Of a DNA stretch of 64,000 nt, positions 27,197-53,561 are shown one piece after another. The stretch comes from Falsiruegeria litorea R37 (GTDB taxonomy: Bacteria > Pseudomonadota > Alphaproteobacteria > Rhodobacterales > Rhodobacteraceae): contig NZ_FWFO01000001.1 in the NCBI RefSeq assembly GCF_900172225.1, positions 1-64,000 on the forward strand. The letters run 5' to 3'. Below the pieces are notes generated by a model, which did not search any database, was not told where the DNA came from, and saw only the letters and a list, made by a program, of their open reading frames with translations. The translations under genes and the position numbers were made by a program. Every line of letters starts with the position of its first letter. Positions within the stretch are counted from its first letter, which is position 1.

Positions 27197-27226
27197 GAGC
27201 AGGGCCGGGCCTATCCCCGTCCTGCA
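27197..27226 (-). terminator. Expression-platform hairpin of the FMN riboswitch
   Basis: Directly downstream of the aptamer on the minus strand, GCAGG (27222-27226 region) can pair with CCTGC (27198-27203 region), with GGGCC segments inside. It lies just before the ribH2 ribosome site and could terminate or sequester. No strong U-run, so a translational effect is also possible. Confidence 0.4.
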
Positions 27227-27371
27227 CGTTCTCTTTCATCCGGACTATGACCGTCGGCTCTGGCATCTCACCAGATCTGCTGACACCCTTGGAAAAGGGC
27301 CGCTCGCGGGCTTACGGGTCATGATGCCTGCATACCGCCGGTGGGGAGTTTCGCCCCGCCCTGAGAACGAC
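27227..27371 (-). promoter_or_regulatory. FMN riboswitch (RFN element)
   Basis: On the minus strand the sequence runs TTCTCAGGGCGGGGCGAAAC, then CCCCACCGGCGGTA, AGCCCGCGAGC, GATCTGGTGAGATGCCAGAGCC, GACGGTCATAGTCCGGATG and closes with AGAGAACG. All conserved blocks of the RFN aptamer are present in order, including the six-helix junction strands. It binds FMN and represses the downstream ribH2. Confidence 0.95.
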
Positions 27372-27433
27372 GTGGACCTTGCCAATGGCGCGTGGGTTCT
27401 GCAAGACCGATTCTGCAAGCCGGAGGGAAATTG

Positions 27434-36733: not shown

Positions 36734-36809
36734 GGGCCGTTAGCTCAGTTGGTAGAGCAACTGACTTTTAATCAGTGGGTCGCAGGTTCGAATCCTGCAC
36801 GGCTCACCA
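36734..36809 (+). tRNA. tRNA-Lys (UUU)
   Basis: A 76-base cloverleaf: acceptor GGGCCGT paired with ACGGCTC, D-arm GCTCAGTTGGTAGAGC, anticodon loop CTTTTAA with TTT at 36767-36769, T-loop TTCGAAT and encoded CCA. It marks the boundary between the core genome and the accessory DNA to its right. Confidence 0.98.
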
Positions 36810-41435: not shown

Positions 41436-43390
41436 AAGACACCGCCCAAAAATACATCGGCTGGCTGGTTCTACTCGACGATCAGGCTTTTTCAGTCATC
41501 GAAGTTGGTGTCACCCACGGCTCCTTGACGCTGGTCAACAAGGACGGTTCTAAGGTGGTCATCAGCAATGAACGCTTTCGTGACCTCATTCACGCAGAAA
41601 TGGCGTTTGATCCTGATGAGGATACAAGTGCTCGGAACCGCATGCTGGACAAAAAGGATCAGCTGGAACTCGGCTTCAGAAAGCGAATTCTGACAGCAAT
41701 CCGACTTCTTCGCGGAGGTGGCCTTACTTGGACAGCAGCTTACAATCAATTGTTCTTGGATTTTTCGTCGGACACATTTGCCTTTCATAGAGTGGGTGGG
41801 TTCCCATCTCTTAGAACCGTTAAGAAGTGGGACACCGACGACCGAAACAAAGGCGAAGCCGCCCTGCGTCCACAGCACAAGAACAAGGGAAACCGTACAC
41901 CACGCTTTGACCTACTCTTTGAGAATATCACGCTCGATATTCTAGAAGAAAGATTCTTAACGTCAGATCGCATGTCCATCACTAAGCTCTGCAAACTGGC
42001 GAGAGCCGTGTACCGCGAGAAGTGTAAGGAGCTTGACATGAAGCCGGGGCCCTGTGGCCACAAATCAGTCAAGGCTATTGTACAACGCTTACCACATGCG
42101 GACATCGTGAAGCTCAGATTGGGCAGTTCCGAGGCGCGCAAGCAGTACCTGCTCGCTATGAAATTGCAAGAAATCACAGTTCCCCTTGAACGGGTTGAGG
42201 CCGACAGCACAACACTGGATGTGTGGTGTGTTGACGACGAAGGCGATCCTGTAGGCCGCCCAATGGTATGTGCAGCAATCGATTGTGCTACCGGTGTCAT
42301 TCTGGGGTTACAAGTAGCTTGGGGCGCTCCATCTTCCAGCCTTGTGGCCAGGACGATCAAGGAAATCTTTACACCCAAATCGGACGCCTTTTTTGATCGA
42401 ATTGGAATCCAAAACAGATTTCAAGCCATCGGTATACCGCAACAAATCGTATCCGATCAAGGGACTGAAAATTCCGGACCCCTCATTGCTTCATTTTTGT
42501 CGTCGGCCACTTTGGATTGGTCAAAGTGCGTTCCCGGTCAACCCGACAGGAAACCGTTCATCGAGCGCTTAATGCTTGAACTCAGCCGGTTCATTACTCA
42601 GTTTCAGGGAGCCTCTCAGACATCGGAAATTGGTGCTCAAAAACGCACTGAGATTGCCTAATCGGAAGCGGTATACACCATCCATGACGTCGAGGAGATG
42701 CTTCAACGCTGGAGATATGACACATATGCGATCAAACAAAGGCGCCGTGTTCAGAACATCCTGAAAACGAAAGAGTCGCCTTTAGCGGCCTGGGAGTCGC
42801 TTGCCAAGCGCTACATTATTCCACCAGCACCGCCGAAAGCGCAAATCAAAGAAATGTTCATGGTCGAAGACGCCGTCCGAGTCGCTGAACACGACGGTAT
42901 CATGTACAAGAACATCCGATACGCATCGTTTGAACTTCAAACCTATCTCCAACGCGTTGGCATTCGCAACAAGGTCCAGATTCGTTACGATCCCAACGAC
43001 ATCCGGGAGATCGCCGTTTGGGATGAAATCGCCAGGGAACATTTCTTTGTCCCCACGAAGCGAGAAAATTGTCCGGCTTTGTCTTTTGCTCAGCTCGACA
43101 AAGCCCGCAAAGCCCTGCGTACACCCGAAATCGAAGAGCTCGAAACTCAGGCTATTCTTGCCGAGCAGCAGATCTACGAAGATTTCAAGGACAAGAACAG
43201 GAAAGGTCTGTCCAAGAAACGGCGCGAGGCAATGCAGATCGCGGCCACTCGAAATGTCGAGTTTATCGAACGTTCCAACCATGCGCCAGGCGTAGACCCA
43301 ACCAATGCCGCCAAGCCCAAACGAGAAAAACCGTCATTGGTGATGCCAAACAACATGCCCAAAACAAACAAGAATCGGAAACCCCTTTGA
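41432..43390 (+). pseudogene. tnsB: TnsB/TniA-type DDE transposase with in-frame stop
   Basis: A Mu-transposase-type integrase. Catalytic residues are D258 (VEADSTTLD), D342 (VSDQGTEN) and E378 (KPFIERLML). The frame is broken by one TAA at 42659-42661, then runs on in the same frame (SEAVYTIHDVEEMLQRWRYD...) to 43390. Together the halves give ~651 residues, normal TnsB length, with a basic, helical C-terminus of the type that binds TnsC. A recent nonsense mutation is the simplest reading; the first half alone (409 aa) keeps the DDE triad. Confidence 0.85.
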
Positions 43391-45042
43391 GCCATCAAGC
43401 CTTGAAAGCAGTTCTCGAGCAGACGATCCACCACACCTTGTATCAAAAGGCGCGCAACGAATTGATTGAAACCATTGCACTGGCCCAGAAGCTTGGTGGT
43501 TCAATCGTGCCTTTTCTCGGCCCCACTCGGTGTGGGAAGTCGCGTATGCTGGAGGATATTCGGGGAGAACTTGGGCGCCCCACAAAAGAGCTTGAAGGTT
43601 GGGTGTATGACAGCGATTTCGCTATCGGCTCGATCCCCAACAAGCCCAATGACAAAATGCTTGTCCGTTCAATGCTTGCATCGCTAGGGTTGAACGGCAA
43701 GCGAGGGCTCTCCGCTTCAGAAATCGAAGCGCAACTTTACCGAGAAATCACGAGCAAAGGTATTCAGGTGATTGCGCTGGATGAGTGCAACCATTGTGCA
43801 GAACGAGGTCACCATCTGTCCAAGCGAGGCGTCACTGATCACTTCAAGCGCCTTGTAGATAATACTGGCGTAACTCTCGTTCTCTGCGGATTGCCCAAGT
43901 TCCAGAAAATTCTTGACGAGATTGAACAGTGCCGAGACCGCTCTATGAAGACCATTCAAATCCTACCCTATAGTTGGTCGCTGGAGGAGGAAAAAACCAA
44001 CTTCGCTGGCGCCATTGCTACGGCATTTGGTCATTTGCAGGACCTTGGTGTCAGTTTCGATTTTGACTCTCAAGAGGTGGTCGTACGGCTCTATGGCGTT
44101 TCCGGTGGGCGAATTGGAGTCGTGATGCGTGTTTTGCATGGTGCAGTGGGCTTCATCAACAACAACGTTCTGACTTACGAGAGCATTGCAAGAAGCGCGA
44201 AAACGGTTCTTCAAGCGCAACACCGGCCTGATTTCTTCGCCGACCTCGGTTACCGTTACGGACGGCCGCTGATCGAAAACATTAGCGACTTGGAAAGGGC
44301 ATGCCGTCTTACTCAAGGGGAATTGGCGGCCATTGCGCCCGAAGCCAAAACTGATGTTGCCTCTCTAGATTGGCAATATGATCGCCGTTGGTCGGACCCG
44401 GTTTGCCCAGAGTGTTTAGCCAACGGACATTTGTATCATCAAAGCTGGCGTCATGGTTTGGTGACAGCGTGCCACACCCTAATCGAACTTGTCTCGCGCA
44501 TTCGAAGAAAGGCAACAGATGCAGGAGGCGACACTGTTGCTTTTTCGGACCTTACGCTGCGCCGTACGACTGACAAAATAGCCTTGAAGAAACTATTGGA
44601 ACTGATCTGTGAGGGAACAGTCCAGGCTACTTTGGCTTCCCTCGATGCGAAACTTGCCGATTTCAGGTTCCTTAAATCCGACGTAGAATACGTTCTGAAA
44701 TCAGAACGGCACTCTTTGGATTGGACGGCCAACGATGTTGCGAAGTTGACGGGGTGGAAAGCTCAATCAGTGACACATTGGTGTAAGGAAGGGCTGTTGG
44801 AATCTCGGACTGTGTCTCACGGGATTGGGGTCAGTTTCCTGGTGAGTCCAATGCAACTGGCAGCCTTTCAAAGTGAATTTGTTCCCTTGGGCACAATCGC
44901 CAAGTCAAGAAATACGACGTCACGGAAACTGCTTTCGGGCCTCGCCAAACGGGGCATCAAAACCCACGGCGCTGTGATTGAAGGCAAAACCAGCCGTGGA
45001 CATCTGGTCAAATTGAGGGACCTGGCTACCCTAGCTGATTGA
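43387..45042 (+). CDS. TnsC/TniB-like ATPase fused to a TniQ-like domain
   Basis: A 551-residue protein. Residues ~1-275 are a TniB/TnsC AAA+ ATPase with Walker A GPTRCGKS (45-52) and Walker B VIALDE (128-133). Residues ~285-400 resemble TniQ: VCPECLANGHLYHQSWRHG with C340, C343, W354 and C362. The tail has a helix-turn-helix (DWTANDVAKLTGWKAQSVTHWC, ~446). TnsC and TniQ/TnsD are normally separate, linking target choice to the transposase. The start is a TTG overlapping the tnsB stop; this is uncertain. No frame break is seen. Confidence 0.78.
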   Translation: MSHQALKAVLEQTIHHTLYQKARNELIETIALAQKLGGSIVPFLGPTRCGKSRMLEDIRGELGRPTKELEGWVYDSDFAIGSIPNKPNDKMLVRSMLASLGLNGKRGLSASEIEAQLYREITSKGIQVIALDECNHCAERGHHLSKRGVTDHFKRLVDNTGVTLVLCGLPKFQKILDEIEQCRDRSMKTIQILPYSWSLEEEKTNFAGAIATAFGHLQDLGVSFDFDSQEVVVRLYGVSGGRIGVVMRVLHGAVGFINNNVLTYESIARSAKTVLQAQHRPDFFADLGYRYGRPLIENISDLERACRLTQGELAAIAPEAKTDVASLDWQYDRRWSDPVCPECLANGHLYHQSWRHGLVTACHTLIELVSRIRRKATDAGGDTVAFSDLTLRRTTDKIALKKLLELICEGTVQATLASLDAKLADFRFLKSDVEYVLKSERHSLDWTANDVAKLTGWKAQSVTHWCKEGLLESRTVSHGIGVSFLVSPMQLAAFQSEFVPLGTIAKSRNTTSRKLLSGLAKRGIKTHGAVIEGKTSRGHLVKLRDLATLAD

Positions 45043-46410: not shown

Positions 46411-49400
46411 CTAGAGCTGACCTGACCCCTTTGAGAAGAGCACGACCGAAACCCGCGCTCCGATCTCGGGGACGTGGTTTCGAGACAACTGCTCGGCCGA
46501 GTTGATAACCTTGCTCATCTTTTCAAAGATCATGGTGGAACTGTTCTCGTCGTTTCCAAGCATTTCTAAAATGGCCTCCAGTGCGATGTAGCCCTTCGGA
46601 AGGCCTTCATAGGCAAAACTCGCTCGTACTTCGTGTTTTGCCTGTTCCCAGAATGGATCAAGAAGGCGGCTCCAGGCTTCGCAAACCATCTCGACCGCCT
46701 GAAGCGAGAGATGACCAAACATATCCTGGTCATCAAGGTCCTGTCGGCTGCTGCGGCTCATGAATTGAGCACAGGCCATCATCAGGCTTTCGACGCGAGC
46801 CGGACGAAGATCCCACTCCGTCAGGGCTCCAACCTGACCCGAAATAGCTTCGAGGGCTTCTGTAAGATCAGCCAGCGACATGTGTGATTTTTCCGCGCCC
46901 AGACGTCGGGTTCGCTCGAAAGCGGTTTCAATCGAAGTCGCACAAGACACCTGGTCCCGGTCCAAGGCCAATCCTGCGTCCGTGTCTCGAAGCAAAACAA
47001 GTCGCGGCGGGAAGAAGCTACCGGGCTTATCCACGCCTTTCAGATGGAGAGCTGTAAACCGTTCGCTGGATGAAAGAAGTGCAAGCTCAGCACCCCAGGT
47101 GCCGCGAATGTCGGCCTTTTCCAGAAGCCTGATACGGTCAAGGGCAACCGAGAGCTTTGTGCGACTTAGGACGTCATGAAGGTTTCCACTCCGCAGACTT
47201 CTTTGAGATCCCAGATATTCTATAGTGCTATCGAGGATCACTTCGGCATCCTCCGGTTCTTCCTCCAGCACAGCGTCGATAAGGTCTTCGCCGGCCAAAG
47301 TTCGGTAGTTCCCGATGCGTTGTGCGATCTTTTCATCCGAGGCGAACTGGCCCACCGGAATGTCGACGAGGTGATAATTCACGGTGCCAAATGCGCTGTC
47401 GATCCGATCAATCCGGCCGAGCCCTTGGATCAACTCCTTCAGGTTTGAAGTGGCGCCGAGCAGGACCAAAGTGTCAGCGGATTGAAGGTTGATGCCTTCG
47501 GCCATTTTGTACGTCAGGAAAACAGAAGAAGGACCGGAGGGGGAGTTGCTCCCGCCAGGGCGGAAGAAGGATTCGACTGACTTGCCATCCTTGATGCGGA
47601 CGAAACTTGCAGGTCTCTCGTCAAAGACGGATTCTACAGCCCGCTCCTTGTCTCTTGCAGGTATGCCCACGACGAAGTTCATGTGGTGGCCTCTTTGAGA
47701 CAGCGCCTCTGCATAAATCTCCAGCGTGTCGATCCTCTCGGCAAGAAAAACCACTCGATCCTTGCTCTCCTGGATTTTCAAACAGGCTTTGTAGCGTTTT
47801 TCGTCCAGTTCGCTCAAAGGGCGCAGACTGAGTTTCTTTTGAAGTGCGTCGCACTTTGGAGATGACGGCACTGCATCAATTCCAAGCATCGAAAACATGT
47901 CAGCCTGAAGGATGCCATCGTCTTGATTTCGTGCGCCGGTCTTGCGCTCGAAATCTCGAAGCCATTTTCCAATCGCCCCTTGGGCCATTTCCCAGTGGGC
48001 TTGAGCGGAACTGACACGGAGAATGTTCTGAAGGTTGCGGATGTAGAGTTGGTCTTGCGTGCTTTGCTGGGTGTTGGCCTGGCCAAAGCGGGATTTTTCC
48101 ACCGCCGTAACCCTGGCACCGGGCGCGAGATCTTTGCAGAGCGAGACAATCTCATCCAATTGAGCCTGTTCGGTCTTCGTTGTTTTCAGCTTCCTGGCAC
48201 GGCCATGATTGGCGAGCTTCGGATAGCTGTGCCTCGTTCGATCCTTGCTTTCGCCAATGCATCGCCGTTGCCTTCTTGTGAGGAAGGGCGACAGGAGTTT
48301 AGAAAGCTCTGCGCGAGCCTGCCTTGAGAGAGCTGATCCTGTTTCAGAAAACTCAGGCGTGCTTTCTCCCTGTCCATTCAGGCAAGACAGACCATTCATT
48401 TCTCTTTCGAACAGTTCTCCCATCTCCTGGATGAAAGCTGGCGTGGTGTAGATTGATGCCCGTTTCTCCTGCATATGAGCAAGCCAGTCTACATCCCGGT
48501 TGCCAAGGAGCGTCGCTGACAGGCAGACATTCCAGCTTGGTGGCGCAAGTTCGATGGCGGCAGCCATTTGGGACGCCTGTTCAAACCCCGGCGTAACGGT
48601 ATGACTTTCGTCGATGATCAGGACACCGTACTGGTCGAGCCTGAGCCCTGATTTTCTATCATCACCCGCCCCGCGCAAATGCTGTTTTGCGAGCATGCTG
48701 TTGGCAACTGCGGCCAGGGAATTTGTCGAGTATTTCTTCCAGCTCGGAATAACCTTGGGAGGAGCGATCACCGCTGCATTCTTGCGCGCCACCCCATGAA
48801 CCGGAGATTTGGGAATGACCCGGGAGAACGTCTCAGAAAGCGCCTCGGCGAGATGGCAGCCAATTTCAGTTTTCCCCGAGCCTGTCGGCGCTTCGACGAA
48901 GGCAAGGCCGTGGTCATAGACTATCGAACAAGCCTCGTAAGTCAGGTCTTGTTGATAGCCATAGAGTGTATGGGAGGTGATGTCCTTCCGATCCCCGGTG
49001 AGCCAGGGCTTGAACCCTTTTTGCTCGCAAATCATCCGCGCAACCGCGTCTTCGGCAGTAACCGGCTTTATCAGCTTGTCGAGGATTTCCAGGGCTGCTG
49101 CGTTCCAATCGACAGAACTCTCCCAAATCTGCTCGGCGGCCTTCTGTCTTTCAGGCTGAAGGGCGTGTGTTCCTGTTTCCAGTCCATCAGCATATTTAAT
49201 GTTTTGGAACAGGCCAGATCTAGAGAAGTTCGCCGAGCCTGCGACGGCGCCGACTGGAGAGCAGACAATTTTCGAGTGCATTCTCCGATCACTGGAAATG
49301 CCCAGATTGGCTCTGCCAAGTTCAGGATCGAACACGCGGAGATCAATGTTACCTCGCTGGATTGCGCTCTTCGCAAGCACAGCCAACAGATCACGTTCTT

Positions 49401-49779
49401 CTTCCACCTGAAGACCGGACCTCTCGAGCCAATAGAGTTTCATTTCCTCGGATACAGGCTTTGCCCTGCCAAAGCGCTTTGCATTTTGCGTATCGATCCC
49501 GAAGGCGATCCGGATACAGTCGTTGCTCTTGTTCACTGGATTTTTCAGGTCTGGCAGCTCTTTCATCAAAATCGAAAGAGAGGACAGAAAATCCTGGTAA
49601 CCAGTGACGATCAGGCAGTCGCCAGAGACGATATGCGGGCGATAGAGATCAATGACCGGCCGATCAATATTGGTCCCAATCTTAGCGACCGCGTCCCCAG
49701 CTTCGAGGGCCATCGGTGGCTCAGTAGTCTTCAGGATCTTGTTTGGCTTGGTTCGAAGCCAAGGCGGGAGGCGGAACAT
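46411..49779 (-). CDS. Phospholipase-D-like nuclease / SF2 helicase fusion
   Basis: A 1122-residue protein. Residues ~40-200 are a PLD-like phosphodiesterase domain with H168-x-K170 and GSANFSRSG (181-189). Residues ~270-800 are an SF2 helicase: Walker A APTGSGKT (297-304), DESH box (390-393), SAT motif III (421-423), GINLQ (motif V, ~761) and QGLGRIDR (motif VI, 784-791). Residues ~850-1122 match nothing I know. Such fusions occur in anti-phage and plasmid-restricting systems, for example beside DISARM-type components; the role here is inferred. It is last in a six-gene minus-strand block. Confidence 0.85.
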   Translation of the reverse strand: MFRLPPWLRTKPNKILKTTEPPMALEAGDAVAKIGTNIDRPVIDLYRPHIVSGDCLIVTGYQDFLSSLSILMKELPDLKNPVNKSNDCIRIAFGIDTQNAKRFGRAKPVSEEMKLYWLERSGLQVEEERDLLAVLAKSAIQRGNIDLRVFDPELGRANLGISSDRRMHSKIVCSPVGAVAGSANFSRSGLFQNIKYADGLETGTHALQPERQKAAEQIWESSVDWNAAALEILDKLIKPVTAEDAVARMICEQKGFKPWLTGDRKDITSHTLYGYQQDLTYEACSIVYDHGLAFVEAPTGSGKTEIGCHLAEALSETFSRVIPKSPVHGVARKNAAVIAPPKVIPSWKKYSTNSLAAVANSMLAKQHLRGAGDDRKSGLRLDQYGVLIIDESHTVTPGFEQASQMAAAIELAPPSWNVCLSATLLGNRDVDWLAHMQEKRASIYTTPAFIQEMGELFEREMNGLSCLNGQGESTPEFSETGSALSRQARAELSKLLSPFLTRRQRRCIGESKDRTRHSYPKLANHGRARKLKTTKTEQAQLDEIVSLCKDLAPGARVTAVEKSRFGQANTQQSTQDQLYIRNLQNILRVSSAQAHWEMAQGAIGKWLRDFERKTGARNQDDGILQADMFSMLGIDAVPSSPKCDALQKKLSLRPLSELDEKRYKACLKIQESKDRVVFLAERIDTLEIYAEALSQRGHHMNFVVGIPARDKERAVESVFDERPASFVRIKDGKSVESFFRPGGSNSPSGPSSVFLTYKMAEGINLQSADTLVLLGATSNLKELIQGLGRIDRIDSAFGTVNYHLVDIPVGQFASDEKIAQRIGNYRTLAGEDLIDAVLEEEPEDAEVILDSTIEYLGSQRSLRSGNLHDVLSRTKLSVALDRIRLLEKADIRGTWGAELALLSSSERFTALHLKGVDKPGSFFPPRLVLLRDTDAGLALDRDQVSCATSIETAFERTRRLGAEKSHMSLADLTEALEAISGQVGALTEWDLRPARVESLMMACAQFMSRSSRQDLDDQDMFGHLSLQAVEMVCEAWSRLLDPFWEQAKHEVRASFAYEGLPKGYIALEAILEMLGNDENSSTMIFEKMSKVINSAEQLSRNHVPEIGARVSVVLFSKGSGQL

Positions 49780-49973
49780 ATGATTGGCCTAATCTGGCAT
49801 GTGAAGCAATTGCCCAGGCAAGAAACTCGGTTGCGGCACTTCTGATGATCCAGAAAGTACACCCAAAAACAAGTGGATGTAGGTTCTATTGAGATTGATC
49901 ATCTCTGTCCGTTCTTTCACGCCTTTGGATCTCGCCATGAGGGTCGACTTTCTAAGGTTGTTTCACCTGAGTC

Positions 49974-50396
49974 CTAGCGAAAGATCTTCGCTGAGAGCTT
50001 GCTCAGCAAATCGCCGAGGCCTATTTGCTCAGAGTGGTTTGCAACGCTCGTCTCGGTTCCAAATTTGTCAGGGCTGTGCCGGCATTCACGTTCCTCGTGT
50101 TCCCCTAATCGGTCAAGCAGGGCGGCCTGCTGCCGCTCCACATCCGCAAGAATGGCCTCCATTTTCGAAAGCTGCTCATTGAGAGGCCGGTTGGCGACAT
50201 TCGAGTTCCCCGACGGATCGCCATCTGAGCCCGGATTGCATTCGTAGTGCGAAATCAATTCGCGAAAGAGTGCGGTTTTCGCGCCATGTCTGAAGCCCGC
50301 GAATTCGGCTGCCATCTTTGAGAAATAGTCAAACTCCTCCTCCGTTACTCGAAATTGAAGTGGTTTGAATGTTGCTTCTTGTCTGGGTCTAGTCAT
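49974..50396 (-). CDS. Small protein with RHH-like start and coiled coil
   Basis: A 140-residue protein. Residues ~12-50 (FRVTEEEFDYFSKMAAEFAG... KTALFRELISHYE) have the strand-helix-helix look of a ribbon-helix-helix or plasmid mobilisation-type DNA-binding domain. Residues ~75-100 (LSKMEAILADVERQQAALLDRLGEHEE) are a probable coiled coil. It may be a DNA-binding regulator or adaptor of the helicase, 194 bases downstream. Family not recognised. Confidence 0.6.
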   Translation of the reverse strand: MTRPRQEATFKPLQFRVTEEEFDYFSKMAAEFAGFRHGAKTALFRELISHYECNPGSDGDPSGNSNVANRPLNEQLSKMEAILADVERQQAALLDRLGEHEERECRHSPDKFGTETSVANHSEQIGLGDLLSKLSAKIFR

Positions 50397-50513
50397 TGAT
50401 GTGGTTCCTTTCGTTGATGTCGCTCAAGCAGGGAGTTGGGTTGATCCGTCAGGGCCAAACCGGAACTTTTGTGAAATCGGCGGCACGGTTGGTTTTTGAT
50501 GAAACTGCTCTCA

Positions 50514-50771
50514 TCACTCAGTCCCGACCCTTGACCCGCTATGTTCGCTTGTTGCCATCTCTGCGATTTTGCGAACCAGATGCCACACACTGGTTCGGCG
50601 TGGATGGTCTTTGATCCAGCCGGTGACATCGCTGGCCGGGATGTCCAGGTCAGGTGCTCCGTGCTCGACCACCCGGACTTTGTAGTCGCTGACATCAGCG
50701 AGATCGGACATATTGCCGACCAGCGCCCTGGCGACTGGCGTTTCGTTCACATAAACAACAACTGTCAGCAT
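50514..50771 (-). CDS. Hypothetical small protein
   Basis: An 85-residue protein starting MLTVVVYVNETPVARALVGN and continuing DVSDYKVRVVEHG, an alternating strand pattern suggesting a small beta-rich fold. No family recognised. ATG 50771 has AGGAACGAGG just upstream; another ATG at 50786 lacks this. It lies between the AAA+ ATPase and the coiled-coil gene in the same block. Confidence 0.6.
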   Translation of the reverse strand: MLTVVVYVNETPVARALVGNMSDLADVSDYKVRVVEHGAPDLDIPASDVTGWIKDHPRRTSVWHLVRKIAEMATSEHSGSRVGTE

Positions 50772-50822
50772 CCTCGTTCCTTTCATGTGATTGGCTGCAC
50801 TGATCGCTAGGCAGGTTGTTCA

Positions 50823-50841
50823 GCCCGGGCGTGCCCCGGGC
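50823..50841 (-). terminator. GC-rich hairpin after the AAA+ gene
   Basis: GCCCGGG (50823-50829) and CCCGGGC (50835-50841) form a perfect 7-base stem 18 bases after the AAA+ ATPase stop, without a T-run. It could reduce read-through or protect the mRNA end, setting the ratio between the two halves of the block. Confidence 0.4.
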
Positions 50842-50859
50842 CGCCGGGCATACGCTCCT

Positions 50860-52152
50860 TCAGTTTCGTGCAAGGTTTCTCGACTTGTGGTGCAGGAGGC
50901 CACGGACCAGCCGGTTCAGGAACCGGACACAGTGGTGGACCTTGTAGGTCTCCGTGAGAGCCTCGACATCGCCGACATCCAGCCTGAAAAACTCCCGCCT
51001 TAGCCCGTGTTCTGAGGCGTACTCGTCCACAAGGCTTGTGATGATCTCTGGCAGCTGGTGCGGTGACGGCACCGGGATCTCGTAAATCGTACAGCGACTG
51101 CGTAGCGGAGCTGGAACGTTTTCCAGATCATTCGCTGTGAGGATCCAGCTCACATGGCTGGCGTCCACGTCAGCCGCCAGGTACTTCTCCCGGTAGCGCC
51201 TGGCTTCCAACGGCTCCAACATGCCCAGGAGTTCGCCAGCAATGTCCCCATTGCGCCCGGAATGTGTCTTGTCGATCTCGTCCAGGATGATCACTGGGTT
51301 CAGAACTCGGGCTGTAGCAACCGCGTCTGTTACGATTCCGGGATGCGCAGTGTGCCACCCAGCGGATAAGCCAAACAGATGATTTTCGGATTTCCCGCCG
51401 ACATTTGCAATTTTAGCATGCAGATCGAGCGCCTTACAGATCTGTCTGGCCACCGCAGTTTTGCCAACGCCAGGTGACCCGACAAGGAGTGTGGGCGGGA
51501 TTTGGATGATGTCCGACCCCATGCCCCAGCTAGTTTCAATGCCCTCAGCAATACCTTCAATGAGCCGCTCGCAATGAGGGAAGCGTCTGGACACGGCCCG
51601 GAGCGTGTCCAAATCATTCAGGGATGCCAACCTGGCAAACTGCTCACTCCACTCGACGAGTTCCCGGATATGGGCTGGCATATCCCTTTGAAGGTTCCGA
51701 GGCAGGTATTCGAAGTTCACATTGTCGACGAGGTAGCGAGCAACTCCTGGCTGTTTGCCACTTCCGGTATAGGCATCCTGAGAAGTTGCCTTTGCGTGGG
51801 CCTTCGCGATGAGTGCCATGACATTCAACCAGATATCCCTGGTGGCCATCTGATCCAACGCTTTGGCTCCGCTGATTGCGGCAAACGGATCAATCTCCGT
51901 CAACCGATCAAATTCAACTTCGCGCCAGTCTTCCGGGTCGTCGCTGTATTGTGCGGCCTCCTCGACCCGATTGCACAAGACTTCCCTGAGATCTTTGACT
52001 CTAGCCGTTTCGAGAACCATGCTTTTGATGGTGTCCCAACAGTCGCAATCCCTCACAGCAATCAGGGCCACCCTGACGATGTCCGCGTTGTCGTGATCGA
52101 ACCCGGCCAGGGCAAAAACCTCGCCGTCGATCCATGTTGTGTCGGCCTCCAT
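50860..52152 (-). CDS. Lon-like AAA+ ATPase without protease domain
   Basis: A 430-residue protein. The N-terminal ~200 residues are helical and unfamiliar. The AAA+ module has Walker A GSPGVGKT (225-232), Walker B VIILDEID (287-294), sensor 1 ILTAND (337-342) and an arginine finger in LRSR (350-353), most like the Lon AAA domain. The chain ends without the Lon Ser-Lys protease, so it is a remodeller or switch, not a protease by itself. ATG 52152 follows GGTGGTGAG, and the upstream gene stops one base before. Confidence 0.85.
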   Translation of the reverse strand: MEADTTWIDGEVFALAGFDHDNADIVRVALIAVRDCDCWDTIKSMVLETARVKDLREVLCNRVEEAAQYSDDPEDWREVEFDRLTEIDPFAAISGAKALDQMATRDIWLNVMALIAKAHAKATSQDAYTGSGKQPGVARYLVDNVNFEYLPRNLQRDMPAHIRELVEWSEQFARLASLNDLDTLRAVSRRFPHCERLIEGIAEGIETSWGMGSDIIQIPPTLLVGSPGVGKTAVARQICKALDLHAKIANVGGKSENHLFGLSAGWHTAHPGIVTDAVATARVLNPVIILDEIDKTHSGRNGDIAGELLGMLEPLEARRYREKYLAADVDASHVSWILTANDLENVPAPLRSRCTIYEIPVPSPHQLPEIITSLVDEYASEHGLRREFFRLDVGDVEALTETYKVHHCVRFLNRLVRGLLHHKSRNLARN

Positions 52153-52153
52153 C

Positions 52154-52651
52154 TCACCACCCCTTTGAGACGCAGGCGGGACACCGGTGACCAGAGACAC
52201 CCCAGGAGATTTGCCCGAAGTAGCCACAGCTGCGGCACTGGAGAGCTTCGCTCCGGACTTGGGTATTCAAGCTGACCGTCGGAAAGTCCGCCATTCGTTC
52301 GGCGGCCGCCTCATGGGCATGCCAGCAGCACAGATTAGCATACCGGTAACCGATGCACTGAATCGCCGAGGCGTTTCCGCAGCGCTCGCATGATCTGTCT
52401 GCTTTCTGAACCGCCTCCCTCAGAATCGACTGGATGAACGGGTCTTCTCGCACGCCATCCAAGTGGATGCGAAGGGAACCGTATTTCTGCTTGATCTGGC
52501 CGACGGGAGGAAAACTCTTTTCGACCTTGTCACAGTGCAGTTTGATGTTTTCGAAACACTCGGTGACGATCTGAACCCAGCCGACATTGTCCTCGCCGAG
52601 GTGTTTCTCGACCGATCCACGGATGTCGTCGTAATCGAAGCCTTCAGTCAT
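52154..52651 (-). CDS. Cys-rich zinc-ribbon-like protein
   Basis: A 165-residue protein. The N-terminal half is helical. The C-terminal half has CERCGN (~91), CCWHAH (~108), CRSCGYFG (~139) and CPAC (~158), enough Cys/His for one or two zinc sites. Family not recognised; nucleic-acid or protein binding is likely. ATG 52651 overlaps the upstream gene by 8 bases, and the AAA+ gene starts one base downstream, so all three are translated together. Confidence 0.65.
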   Translation of the reverse strand: MTEGFDYDDIRGSVEKHLGEDNVGWVQIVTECFENIKLHCDKVEKSFPPVGQIKQKYGSLRIHLDGVREDPFIQSILREAVQKADRSCERCGNASAIQCIGYRYANLCCWHAHEAAAERMADFPTVSLNTQVRSEALQCRSCGYFGQISWGVSGHRCPACVSKGW

Positions 52652-53066
52652 CGGATTGCTCCGTCCCTTCTTTAGCTCCGGTCGGATTGTTCGGCTTAAG
52701 GTTCTCAAAATGGACGACCAACCGGCTAAGACCCTCTTGAATCTCAGCCTGCACAACCGACCTCAGTGCGCTGAAATCATTGTCAGGCAGATCGATCAGG
52801 AGATCAGCAACACGACAATGAGTTCGGCTGTCCGCGTCAAAGGCAATCATCGGAAAGACGATTTTCATCACAGCGTCTAAGCCTAGAAAGCGCCGACTCT
52901 CCAATTCGAGATCAGAGTAAATCCGGCCGGTGCTCATATCGAACAGAACCGCCTCTTTGAGCTCGCGATTCACAATGCGGGTTTTGATTTCCGCGACCAA
53001 ATCGTCGTTTGCATGTAACTTGAGCGGGCGTGTGGGTTCGTCTTTGGATCCGGAGTTGTCGGACAT
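52644..53066 (-). CDS. Hypothetical protein, first gene of the block
   Basis: A 140-residue acidic protein with mixed alpha/beta pattern (ADLLIDLPDNDFSALRSVVQ ~88, then a helix). No motif or family recognised. Its ATG at 53066 has TTGGAGGC seven bases upstream, and the tRNA-like element ends only 17 bases before the start, so both are probably on one transcript. Confidence 0.6.
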   Translation of the reverse strand: MSDNSGSKDEPTRPLKLHANDDLVAEIKTRIVNRELKEAVLFDMSTGRIYSDLELESRRFLGLDAVMKIVFPMIAFDADSRTHCRVADLLIDLPDNDFSALRSVVQAEIQEGLSRLVVHFENLKPNNPTGAKEGTEQSDD

Positions 53067-53083
53067 GTTTTGCCTCCAATAAG

Positions 53084-53177
53084 TGGTAGGAGGCGTCGGA
53101 ATCGAACCGACTCGTGCACTCTAATCTGGAGCAATTACAGGAACATAAACCCCGCCCGCATACCAATGCTGCCTCCC
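53084..53177 (-). tRNA. tRNA-like element with long variable arm
   Basis: On the minus strand, GGGAGGC (53177-53171) pairs with GCCTCCT over seven bases (end pair G-T), followed by A and encoded CCA (53084-53086). The T-arm GTCGG-TTCGATT-CCGAC is perfect. A D-like arm GCA-TTGGTA-TGC and an anticodon-like arm CGGGG-TTTATGT-TCCTG give candidate anticodon TAT. The variable region is ~26 bases, as in class II tRNAs. Three bases lie between the D and anticodon arms, which is abnormal. It may be a divergent tRNA, or a tRNA end used as an attachment scar. Confidence 0.45.
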
Positions 53178-53195: not shown

Positions 53196-53214
53196 TATCG
53201 ACCTCAGGTCGATA
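53196..53214. promoter_or_regulatory. Perfect 19-bp palindrome (candidate operator)
   Basis: TATCGACCT-C-AGGTCGATA is a perfect inverted repeat with a single centre base, 18 bases upstream of the tRNA-like element. A further hairpin CCCACA...TGTGGG (53175-53194) lies between them. Its place in front of the six-gene block suits an operator. Confidence 0.5.
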
Positions 53215-53561
53215 TTCGCTGGCAGTTGATGCGTGCGTTGGTCATGCTCCAAGGCTGGAGGAACTTGGGTCGCGACGTCAAGACCGAGAACGAAAAAACT
53301 GAAAATTCACCGCGTAGTTCCGGGAACCTTCCCGTTTTGAGTGTGCGGGGAAAGCTGATTCAGCCAACTGGGTTGGCAGATTTCATCGGTCTTGAGTTGC
53401 CAGCAGTAAGACGATTCGGGGTATATTGCAGCCCGGATCCAGAGCATTGCTACCGACTTCGGCCGCTCGCAATGACGGCAGGCAGTTCTTATCAGACGTT
53501 TCTGCACAGCGCATCGAACGGCTTTCCGATTTTCGTTGCGCACGCCGACTAAGTCGGCTTT
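53215..53561. other. Gap with no recognised gene
   Basis: About 350 bases between the palindrome and the porin gene. Short frames on both strands look like chance. The left half gives peptides that I associate with decayed mobile-element flanks in this family, but I cannot name the element. Confidence 0.4.

Follow-up and report, generated by a model that had tools for sequence, protein, structure and literature searches.

A phage-type tRNA-like element ahead of accessory genes in Falsiruegeria litorea and other Rhodobacterales, and its possible role as a leader

Background

The DNA considered here is a 64,000-nucleotide (nt) stretch of Falsiruegeria litorea R37, an alphaproteobacterium of the Rhodobacteraceae (contig NZ_FWFO01000001.1, positions 1 to 64,000 of the forward strand; hereafter the window). 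On its minus strand a tRNA-like element (TLE) with a UAU anticodon stands directly ahead of a row of accessory genes. Phages contain this RNA type too, and in Rhodobacterales it stands immediately before several unrelated genes. An earlier sequence-only reading, which had proposed an undescribed six-gene system, missed this most surprising part of the locus, namely a phage tRNA type ahead of several unrelated gene sets.

Several described RNAs resemble the TLE in part. The leader of the Escherichia coli thrS gene mimics anticodon arms and controls a synthetase gene, and in type III toxin-antitoxin systems a protein gene is immediately preceded by a short structured RNA, of which phage mimics are possible. 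The closest description is that of allo-tRNA(UAU), an account said to go back to Mukai et al. in 2017. According to a review (PMC7609411), allo-tRNAs have acceptor/T-stem lengths of 8/4 or 9/3 and a long variable arm, UAU is among the commonest anticodons of the 8/4 class, and the UAU group is unusable for translation in E. coli, with one pseudogene lying in a transposon-related open reading frame (ORF). Some phage-encoded tRNAs have been proposed to escape tRNA-targeting defences, and a word search of the available text of the paper concerned (PMC10264068) returned no Ile, UAU or variable arm.

With allo-tRNA(UAU), the TLE shares a tRNA-like form, the UAU anticodon and a long variable arm. 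It differs in its 7/5 stem lengths, which place it outside the 8/4 and 9/3 classes, in a D arm that in most copies has 4 base pairs (bp) and a loop of 4 nt, in the sequence CAGAU(U/C/A)A of the variable-arm loop and in heading operons. The acceptor, D, anticodon and T arms and the CCA end make a canonical cloverleaf, to which the extra variable-arm hairpin and 4-nt D loop are added in departure from type I tRNAs. Selenocysteine tRNA is a different molecule, with the anticodon UCA and a 13-bp acceptor branch against UAU and a 12-bp branch in the TLE. Phage tRNA arrays contain the same RNA type, annotated as tRNA-Ile in Sinorhizobium phage Phosso and in SynMITS9220M01, but each bacterial locus has a single TLE, placed like a leader and linked with accessory genes. 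Like the thrS operator, the TLE presents tRNA mimicry in a 5' leader near a Shine-Dalgarno sequence; unlike it, the TLE is a whole cloverleaf ahead of unrelated accessory genes. In contrast to type III toxin-antitoxin loci, a single RNA copy precedes varied proteins: tandem RNA repeats were not found, each bacterial locus giving one strong model match, and no ToxN-like toxin was matched among the window genes in Pfam, NCBIfam or PADLOC.

A conserved tRNA-shaped RNA

ARAGORN reports a tRNA-Ile(tat) at 53084-53177 on the minus strand, in agreement with the tRNA-like element that the sequence-only reading had placed ahead of the genes. It comprises a 7-bp acceptor stem with a G1.U72 pair, a 4-bp D arm with a UGGU loop, a UAU anticodon arm, a 4-bp variable arm with the loop CAGAUUA, a T arm and CCA. 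The threshold of Rfam family RF00005 is not reached at this position, although window positions 36734 and 164 match that family, and the folding energy of the single sequence is unremarkable against shuffles (z -1.33). When plasmids were searched with the TLE by BLAST, copies came up in Ruegeria sp. THAF33 (87% across 163 bases of the query), ahead of a Cys-rich protein, and in Cereibacter sphaeroides, ahead of an AAA+ ATPase.

The first four copies have the cloverleaf in common, and 9 of its 25 pairs show changes on both sides. Their MAFFT alignment, which was not fitted to the structure but from which the structure was read, contains 14 double-sided changes against 5.7 in shuffles. A covariance model built from these four copies (R1) scores up to 106.5 bits on copies not used for building it. 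Across 75 distinct copies (29 bacterial and 46 viral), aligned with a fit to the structure that leans the comparison towards it, 99.1% of 1856 helix cells are paired, both sides change somewhere in 22 of 25 pairs, double-sided changes number 444 against 112.9 +/- 9.5 in shuffles, and the covariation score is 0.721 against 0.200. The 7-bp acceptor and 5-bp T stems are both paired in 99.7-99.8% of cells. Because the relatives found by R1 share the fold with strong covariation, the TLE is a real conserved tRNA-shaped RNA despite its ordinary fold energy.

The acceptor, D and T stems differ among copies with compensation. Near-constant features are the pair G1.U72, present in 67 of 73, the D-loop GG and, between the anticodon and T arms, the hairpin with its loop CAGAU(U/C/A)A. 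The D arm is ordinary in five viral copies, in SynMITS9220M01 and in Acinetobacter phage qsb1, all of which retain the loop as CAGATTA or CAGATAA; the hairpin, and not the odd D arm, therefore marks the family. The phage tRNA-Ile(UAU) loci with an ordinary D arm are L155, L156, L164, L185, L194, L266 and L267, two of them in named phages.

Distribution in Rhodobacterales and phages

Among 394 genomes of the same family, R1 scored seven at 52 bits or more, and an eighth (G235), at 41 bits, was accepted on its gene context. All remaining matches reached at most 40 bits and were taken for ordinary tRNAs. At 37.8 bits or less this was decided on the score only; G409 (40 bits), by eye a selenocysteine tRNA, was left out. 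A DNA pattern combining the variable-arm loop with the 3' end picked out 38 stretches among 84,980 bacterial and archaeal species, one genome each. R1 confirms 34 of these at 49.6 bits or more, all 34 with record titles from Rhodobacterales, and the four that the model did not confirm (L095, L122, L123 and L130) were left out. Outside the family, a second model (R2) gave five further matches that exceed 50 bits among 385 genomes of the class, whereas among 398 genomes of the phylum no match other than the window does so; matches of 43-49 bits were not counted, G482 (47 bits) being by eye an ordinary tRNA. In total, 40 Rhodobacterales TLE loci were collected.

In viral contigs the same DNA pattern has 17 matches, all 17 confirmed at 80.8-93.9 bits. 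A looser pattern finds at least 120 viral stretches; among the matches listed, 111 of 115 new loci are confirmed at 42 bits or more, three score 35-37 bits (L193, L214 and L223) and one has no match (L225). Other viral counts given here use 76 of these 115 loci, and the remaining 39 enter the confirmation count only. Since the patterns demand parts of the motif, its constancy among pattern matches is partly built in; the stricter pattern does not contain the anticodon, and UUAU is present in 29 of 31 distinct Rhodobacterales copies and in 17 of 17 viral ones. ARAGORN places other tRNA or transfer-messenger RNA (tmRNA) genes in 16 of the 17 viral TLE loci scanned. Among named phages, Synechococcus phages S-SRM01 and S-SKS1 carry the element without annotation, and phage DSL-LC02 carries it by BLAST match only. 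In viral contigs L137, L142, L145 and L146, a permuted tmRNA, a tRNA-Arg(tct) and the TLE lie close together. A literature search limited to titles and the openings of abstracts, with little subscription content, returned no paper describing this tRNA-like RNA family.

Genes behind the element

The sequence-only reading had treated six minus-strand ORFs behind the TLE as one system. All six lie where it had placed them and on that strand, and its tight junctions are there as well: the genes for the 140-amino acid (aa) and zinc-ribbon proteins overlap by 8 bases, and a 1-base gap separates the zinc-ribbon stop from the ATG of the AAA+ gene. The grouping itself stands only in part. The TLE, the AAA+ and zinc-ribbon genes and two small proteins travel together elsewhere, and the full four-gene set recurs behind the TLE in other genomes, but the PLD-helicase is unlinked, being absent from all 47 loci checked, and the fifth gene is loose. 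The six-gene block as one system is rejected, and the conserved unit, as judged from these sequence comparisons, is the TLE with the first four genes. It reaches upstream beyond the interval described earlier, to about 53281. Its features and those of the adjoining genes are as follows.

53252-53281, minus strand: promoter-like site TTGACG-18-CAGCCT ahead of the TLE (from sequence; similar site in the Ruegeria and Cereibacter copies)
53196-53214, minus strand: 19-bp hairpin P0, 18 nt upstream of the TLE and behind a CGAATA motif (from sequence; hairpins with other arms at other Rhodobacterales TLEs)
53084-53177, minus strand: TLE with UAU anticodon, extra variable arm and encoded CCA (ARAGORN and covariation)
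53089-53094, minus strand: 3' acceptor strand GCCTCC, complementary to the Shine-Dalgarno sequence of the first gene (pairing comparison)
53072-53077, minus strand: Shine-Dalgarno sequence GGAGGC of the first gene, 6 nt past the CCA of the TLE (sequence and pairing comparison)
52644-53066, minus strand: first gene, 140-aa protein of no assigned family (homologues directly behind the TLE elsewhere)
52154-52651, minus strand: 165-aa zinc-ribbon protein with an N-terminal alpha/beta domain and Cys clusters (ATG at 52651)
50860-52152, minus strand: Lon-like AAA+ ATPase that lacks the protease domain, with Walker A GSPGVGKT and Walker B VIILDEIDK by eye (ATG at 52152)
50514-50771, minus strand: p90, about 85-90 aa, which closes the conserved set (it may instead start upstream, at 50786)
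49974-50396, minus strand: second 140-aa protein, loosely associated (short weak relatives near some TLEs)
46411-49779, minus strand: PLD/SF2-helicase of 1122 aa, judged to lie outside the unit (no linkage in the loci checked)

The 19-bp palindrome noticed earlier corresponds to P0 and reads TATCGACC-TGA-GGTCGATA. The AAA+ protein was likewise correctly recognised as Lon-type without a protease: it matches Pfam AAA (5e-16) and, over the ATPase part only, NCBIfam Lon (2e-32), at 112.5 bits against a cut-off of 608. The C-terminal protease domain is absent from the match, and the protein is not a Lon protease.

The full window set (140-aa, zinc-ribbon, AAA+ and p90 genes) lies behind the TLE in L106, L110 and L128, and a near-full set in L109 (first gene short, p90 not found) and L129 (first gene broken). 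Homologues of the first gene stand directly behind the TLE in L106, L110, L124, L128 and L087 and are shortened in L109 and L129; p90 is present in 15 searched loci, the window counted. Other loci carry other combinations, such as zinc-ribbon and p90 genes without the AAA+ gene (for example, L045, L104, L113 and L116) or AAA+ genes of other types without the zinc-ribbon gene (L046, L050, L098, L107, L108, L117 and L126), and by eye at least three AAA+ types occur among the cargo. The gene behind the TLE encodes the RNA 2'-phosphotransferase KptA in L121, the same place as L085 (6230-6925; Pfam 2e-46, NCBIfam 5e-73), and by eye an exonuclease-like protein with no family match in L119. Such varied cargo (AAA+ types, zinc-ribbon, KptA, exonuclease-like) is as expected for a regulatory leader. 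In L093, L094, L097, L101, L102, L118 and L125 the gene behind the TLE is broken or none is recognised, and in L284 a relative of the AAA+ gene lies upstream of the TLE on the opposite strand.

KptA at L121 places an RNA-repair enzyme directly behind a tRNA-like RNA. The protein encoded at 49974-50396 has short weak relatives near the TLE in L086, L106, L124 and L128. In L106 and L128 a second zinc-ribbon gene and such a relative lie about 0.5-1.5 kb upstream of the TLE on the same strand.

The zinc-ribbon family occurs in 8 of the 394 family genomes, with copies at a TLE in the window, in G016 and on contig 15 of G235. The structure model of the window protein has a mean predicted local distance difference test (pLDDT) score of 84. 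At E <= 0.001 it has no fold match in the PDB and matches five predicted viral (phage) structures, none with a trusted function; the p90 model was set aside (mean pLDDT 49). Viral contigs contain six distant zinc-ribbon relatives and, by close patterns, no relatives of the AAA+ protein. A zinc-ribbon relative is encoded in 2 of 89 TLE-bearing viral loci (L181 and L196).

Position and signals of a possible leader

Spacing to the next gene was counted in the 38 of 40 Rhodobacterales loci with enough sequence, uncorrected for relatedness among loci. In 27 of the 38, the distance from the CCA to the start of an ORF of 80 aa or more is 5-61 nt, and the same holds for 34% of 4559 positions drawn at random from these loci; because so many random positions qualify in this GC-rich DNA, ORF proximity alone is a weak sign. 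The start falls 17-28 nt past the CCA in 20 of 38 loci (7.0% of random positions), and in 17 of 38 a start at 5-61 nt is preceded by a Shine-Dalgarno-like word, which holds for 3.2% of random positions (98 of 3036). A start at 17-28 nt combined with a Shine-Dalgarno sequence is a stronger sign than mere proximity of an ORF. Among phage copies, an ORF starts at 5-61 nt in 13 of 74.

Upstream, the sequences of the window and of the Ruegeria and Cereibacter copies predict a TTGAC-type promoter-like site some 75-105 nt before the TLE, the latter two with TTGAC(A/G) followed by CAG(A/C)(A/C/T)T in the same place as the window site. Hairpins with differing arms lie just upstream of many Rhodobacterales TLEs, and the 45 nt upstream fold with energies mildly below those of shuffles (mean z -1.2 for 29 bacterial and -0.5 for 70 phage sequences). 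Of 46 bacterial copies (six from outside the family), 35 have the word GAATA in the 60 nt before the TLE, compared with 6 of 89 phage copies; this word is more telling than the hairpin as a bacterial upstream signal.

Of 19 leaders, 13 allow the 3' acceptor strand at least 5 bp of pairing with the 60-nt segment that follows the TLE; among control gene starts the share is 12-20%. Pairing partners differ by group and match their own TLE: GCCTCC/GGAGGC, CCCTCC/GGAGGG, GTCTCC/GGAGAC and ACTCCT/AGGAGT. In 10 of the 13 pairing leaders the two fold states differ by 4 kcal/mol or less. The position of the TLE, and this complementarity where it occurs, would be compatible with a tRNA-like translational operator, an RNA in cis that changes translation of the following gene.

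A tRNA-shaped cis leader as the favoured explanation

The reading ranked first, held tentatively, is that of a four-gene accessory operon in which a domesticated phage-type tRNA would serve as a cis leader that gates translation. The TLE leader and the genes would form one transcript, with the tRNA fold gating the first gene. While the fold is intact, the 3' acceptor strand would be occupied and the Shine-Dalgarno sequence free; once the RNA is cut, refolded or otherwise disturbed, the acceptor strand would pair with the Shine-Dalgarno sequence (GCCTCC/GGAGGC) and shut translation. The factor sensed may also act on the matching phage tRNA, candidates being a tRNA-cutting nuclease, a synthetase, or a phage protein that reads the UAU and CAGAUUA loops, and infection or tRNA stress might thereby be what the genes respond to. 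The effectors, of unspecified activity, would be the AAA+ and zinc-ribbon proteins. In favour of this reading, the decayed locus L087 carries damage in its TLE as well as in its zinc-ribbon gene.

A more specific version, considerably more doubtful, makes the leader a bait in a new kind of infection-responsive regulation: a phage tRNA type would have been copied by Rhodobacterales to stand as leader before defence-like genes, and whatever handles or cuts the phage tRNA would act on the leader as well and so switch these genes on or off. If true, an RNA family with the CAGAUUA arm would hint at a conserved partner in phage-infected cells.

Several observations weigh against a cis leader. No ORF of at least 80 aa starts within 61 nt in 11 of the 38 loci, and the pairing is absent from 6 of 19 leaders (L046, L050, L108, L121, L100 and L086). 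The 19 leaders are a selection out of 40, the 13 positives include five close relatives, and the controls are starts of longest ORFs, many of which may not be true starts; with such controls and with several leaders related, the pairing supports a switch without proving it. The window cloverleaf is 11.3 kcal/mol less stable than the alternative fold, by nearest-neighbour energies that ignore tertiary contacts. An upstream hairpin of at least 6 bp is unspecific, being found in 31 of 37 distinct Rhodobacterales and 46 of 89 phage upstream sequences, and in phages it is often the tail of another tRNA; because phage regions have hairpins too, the case for it rests mainly on the visible compensating arms. 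The gene families also occur apart from the element. The best zinc-ribbon match in G235 (contig 6, L304) has no TLE, and neither do weaker ones in five other genomes (G346, L305; and G242, G255, G280 and G423, without an R1 match above 32 bits). AAA+ relatives likewise occur without it on Limimaricola plasmids (L022 and L023) and in L089-L091. Given these TLE-free relatives, the TLE is tied to a subset of the zinc-ribbon and AAA+ families. Finally, L282 and L283, from outside the family, have no recognised cargo, their ORFs of 98 and 113 aa being of doubtful reality, and the RNA may therefore also work by itself in free form.

Alternative explanations

This last point leads to a system acting in trans, in which the TLE would be excised and, as a free RNA partner, serve as antitoxin, ligand or guide for the proteins of the genes that follow, and phage copies would neutralise the system. 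Phages can mimic type III antitoxin RNAs, and a short RNA gene directly ahead of protein genes fits such an arrangement. The copies without cargo, in phages and in two alphaproteobacterial genomes outside the family, and the conserved non-decoding CAGAUUA loop, which resembles a binding site, favour it. However, the proteins behind the TLEs are mutually unrelated, which is odd for a single RNA partner, and most of the 17 scanned viral loci are rich in other tRNAs, where a role in translation is simpler. A trans partner is unlikely on balance; the varied cargo, tight spacing and Shine-Dalgarno complementarity favour a cis leader and rank it ahead.

Judged slightly less probable still is a working tRNA-Ile(UAU) for AUA codons, a phage-derived passenger on accessory DNA whose position would reflect a shared promoter. 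Most copies have a canonical T arm, many have a CUUAUAA anticodon loop, 30 of 31 distinct Rhodobacterales copies encode CCA, and the constant D-loop GG and the ordinary D arms of some phage copies also agree with a working molecule. AUA makes up 1458 of 6174 Ile codons (23.6%) in the ORFs of 89 viral loci, and a decoding role in phages is therefore plausible. In the bacteria, by contrast, TilS and hence the standard AUA route is present in 10 of 10 host genomes tested, and none of the 47 Ile codons in the four window genes is AUA, for which reason a TLE that serves to translate AUA in them was rejected. AUA accounts for 18 of 465 Ile codons in the cargo (38 ORFs, 15 loci) and 42 of 781 in the window background (37 large ORFs), and AUA decoding for the cargo is unlikely. 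Some copies are also ill suited to decoding, L098 having lost the UAU loop while retaining CAGAUUA, L104, L108 and L119 lacking the usual TTCRA T loop, and L087 being degenerate. Nor would this reading explain why varied genes start 17-28 nt past the element.

An integration hot spot, with the TLE as attachment site of mobile elements whose differing cargo lands behind it, is highly improbable: different gene sets do follow similar TLEs, the block lies at a synteny break, and a tyrosine recombinase (L102), a serine recombinase (L117) and an IS transposase (L118) were seen by eye behind TLEs, but the 3' end of the TLE has no second copy in its own genome (repeats under about 15 bases would escape) and the spacing to the first gene is conserved.

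PLD-helicase and genomic context

The sixth gene has the PLD-nuclease and SF2-helicase motifs ascribed to it (ResIII 6e-7, DEAD, Helicase_C, and an HKD motif HSKIVCSPVGAVAGSANFS by eye). No relative of it was found in the 47 loci checked, of which 44 are TLE records, each 2-20 kb long and with five loci represented twice, and the argument for defence from a combination of nuclease, helicase and AAA+ protein loses its basis with it. Its best relatives, at 70% on a Pseudosulfitobacter plasmid and 60% in genome G016, have no TLE, no relative of the window AAA+ protein and no zinc-ribbon partner in the surrounding 19-23 kb. The PLD-helicase is a possible defence gene in its own right. The block was said to match no named system, and PADLOC 2.0.0 gives weak partial matches only and no full-length match to a system protein (best 1.4e-5 over 77 residues for the AAA+ protein and 2.9e-5 over 42 for the helicase); NCBIfam makes no known-defence-system call for the window genes. 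A defence role of the block is inferred.

The setting in accessory DNA, also claimed earlier, is borne out by a comparison with G001, a genome of the same genus, which matches the window at 94% from 53492 rightwards, whereas 32 kb of G001 beyond the break have no match to the window. Because of this sharp synteny break, the block is placed in accessory DNA. Tn7-like genes occupy window positions 42698-45042 on the plus strand (a Mu-transpos_C protein, and a 657-aa ORF with TniB and weak TniQ matches), and an FMN riboswitch lies at 27224-27372 on the minus strand (113.5 bits).

Significance

A phage-type tRNA ahead of accessory bacterial genes probably controls them, as far as the sequences indicate, which would be a new bacterial use of a virus-like tRNA. 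The patterns and loci given here allow others to locate the RNA family. The finding bears on why phages carry large tRNA arrays and on the purpose of a CAGAUUA-loop tRNA that decoding leaves unexplained, as well as on how bacteria silence accessory, possibly defensive, genes until they are needed. A tRNA-shaped leader common to phages and varied bacterial operons makes both questions testable with simple reporters.

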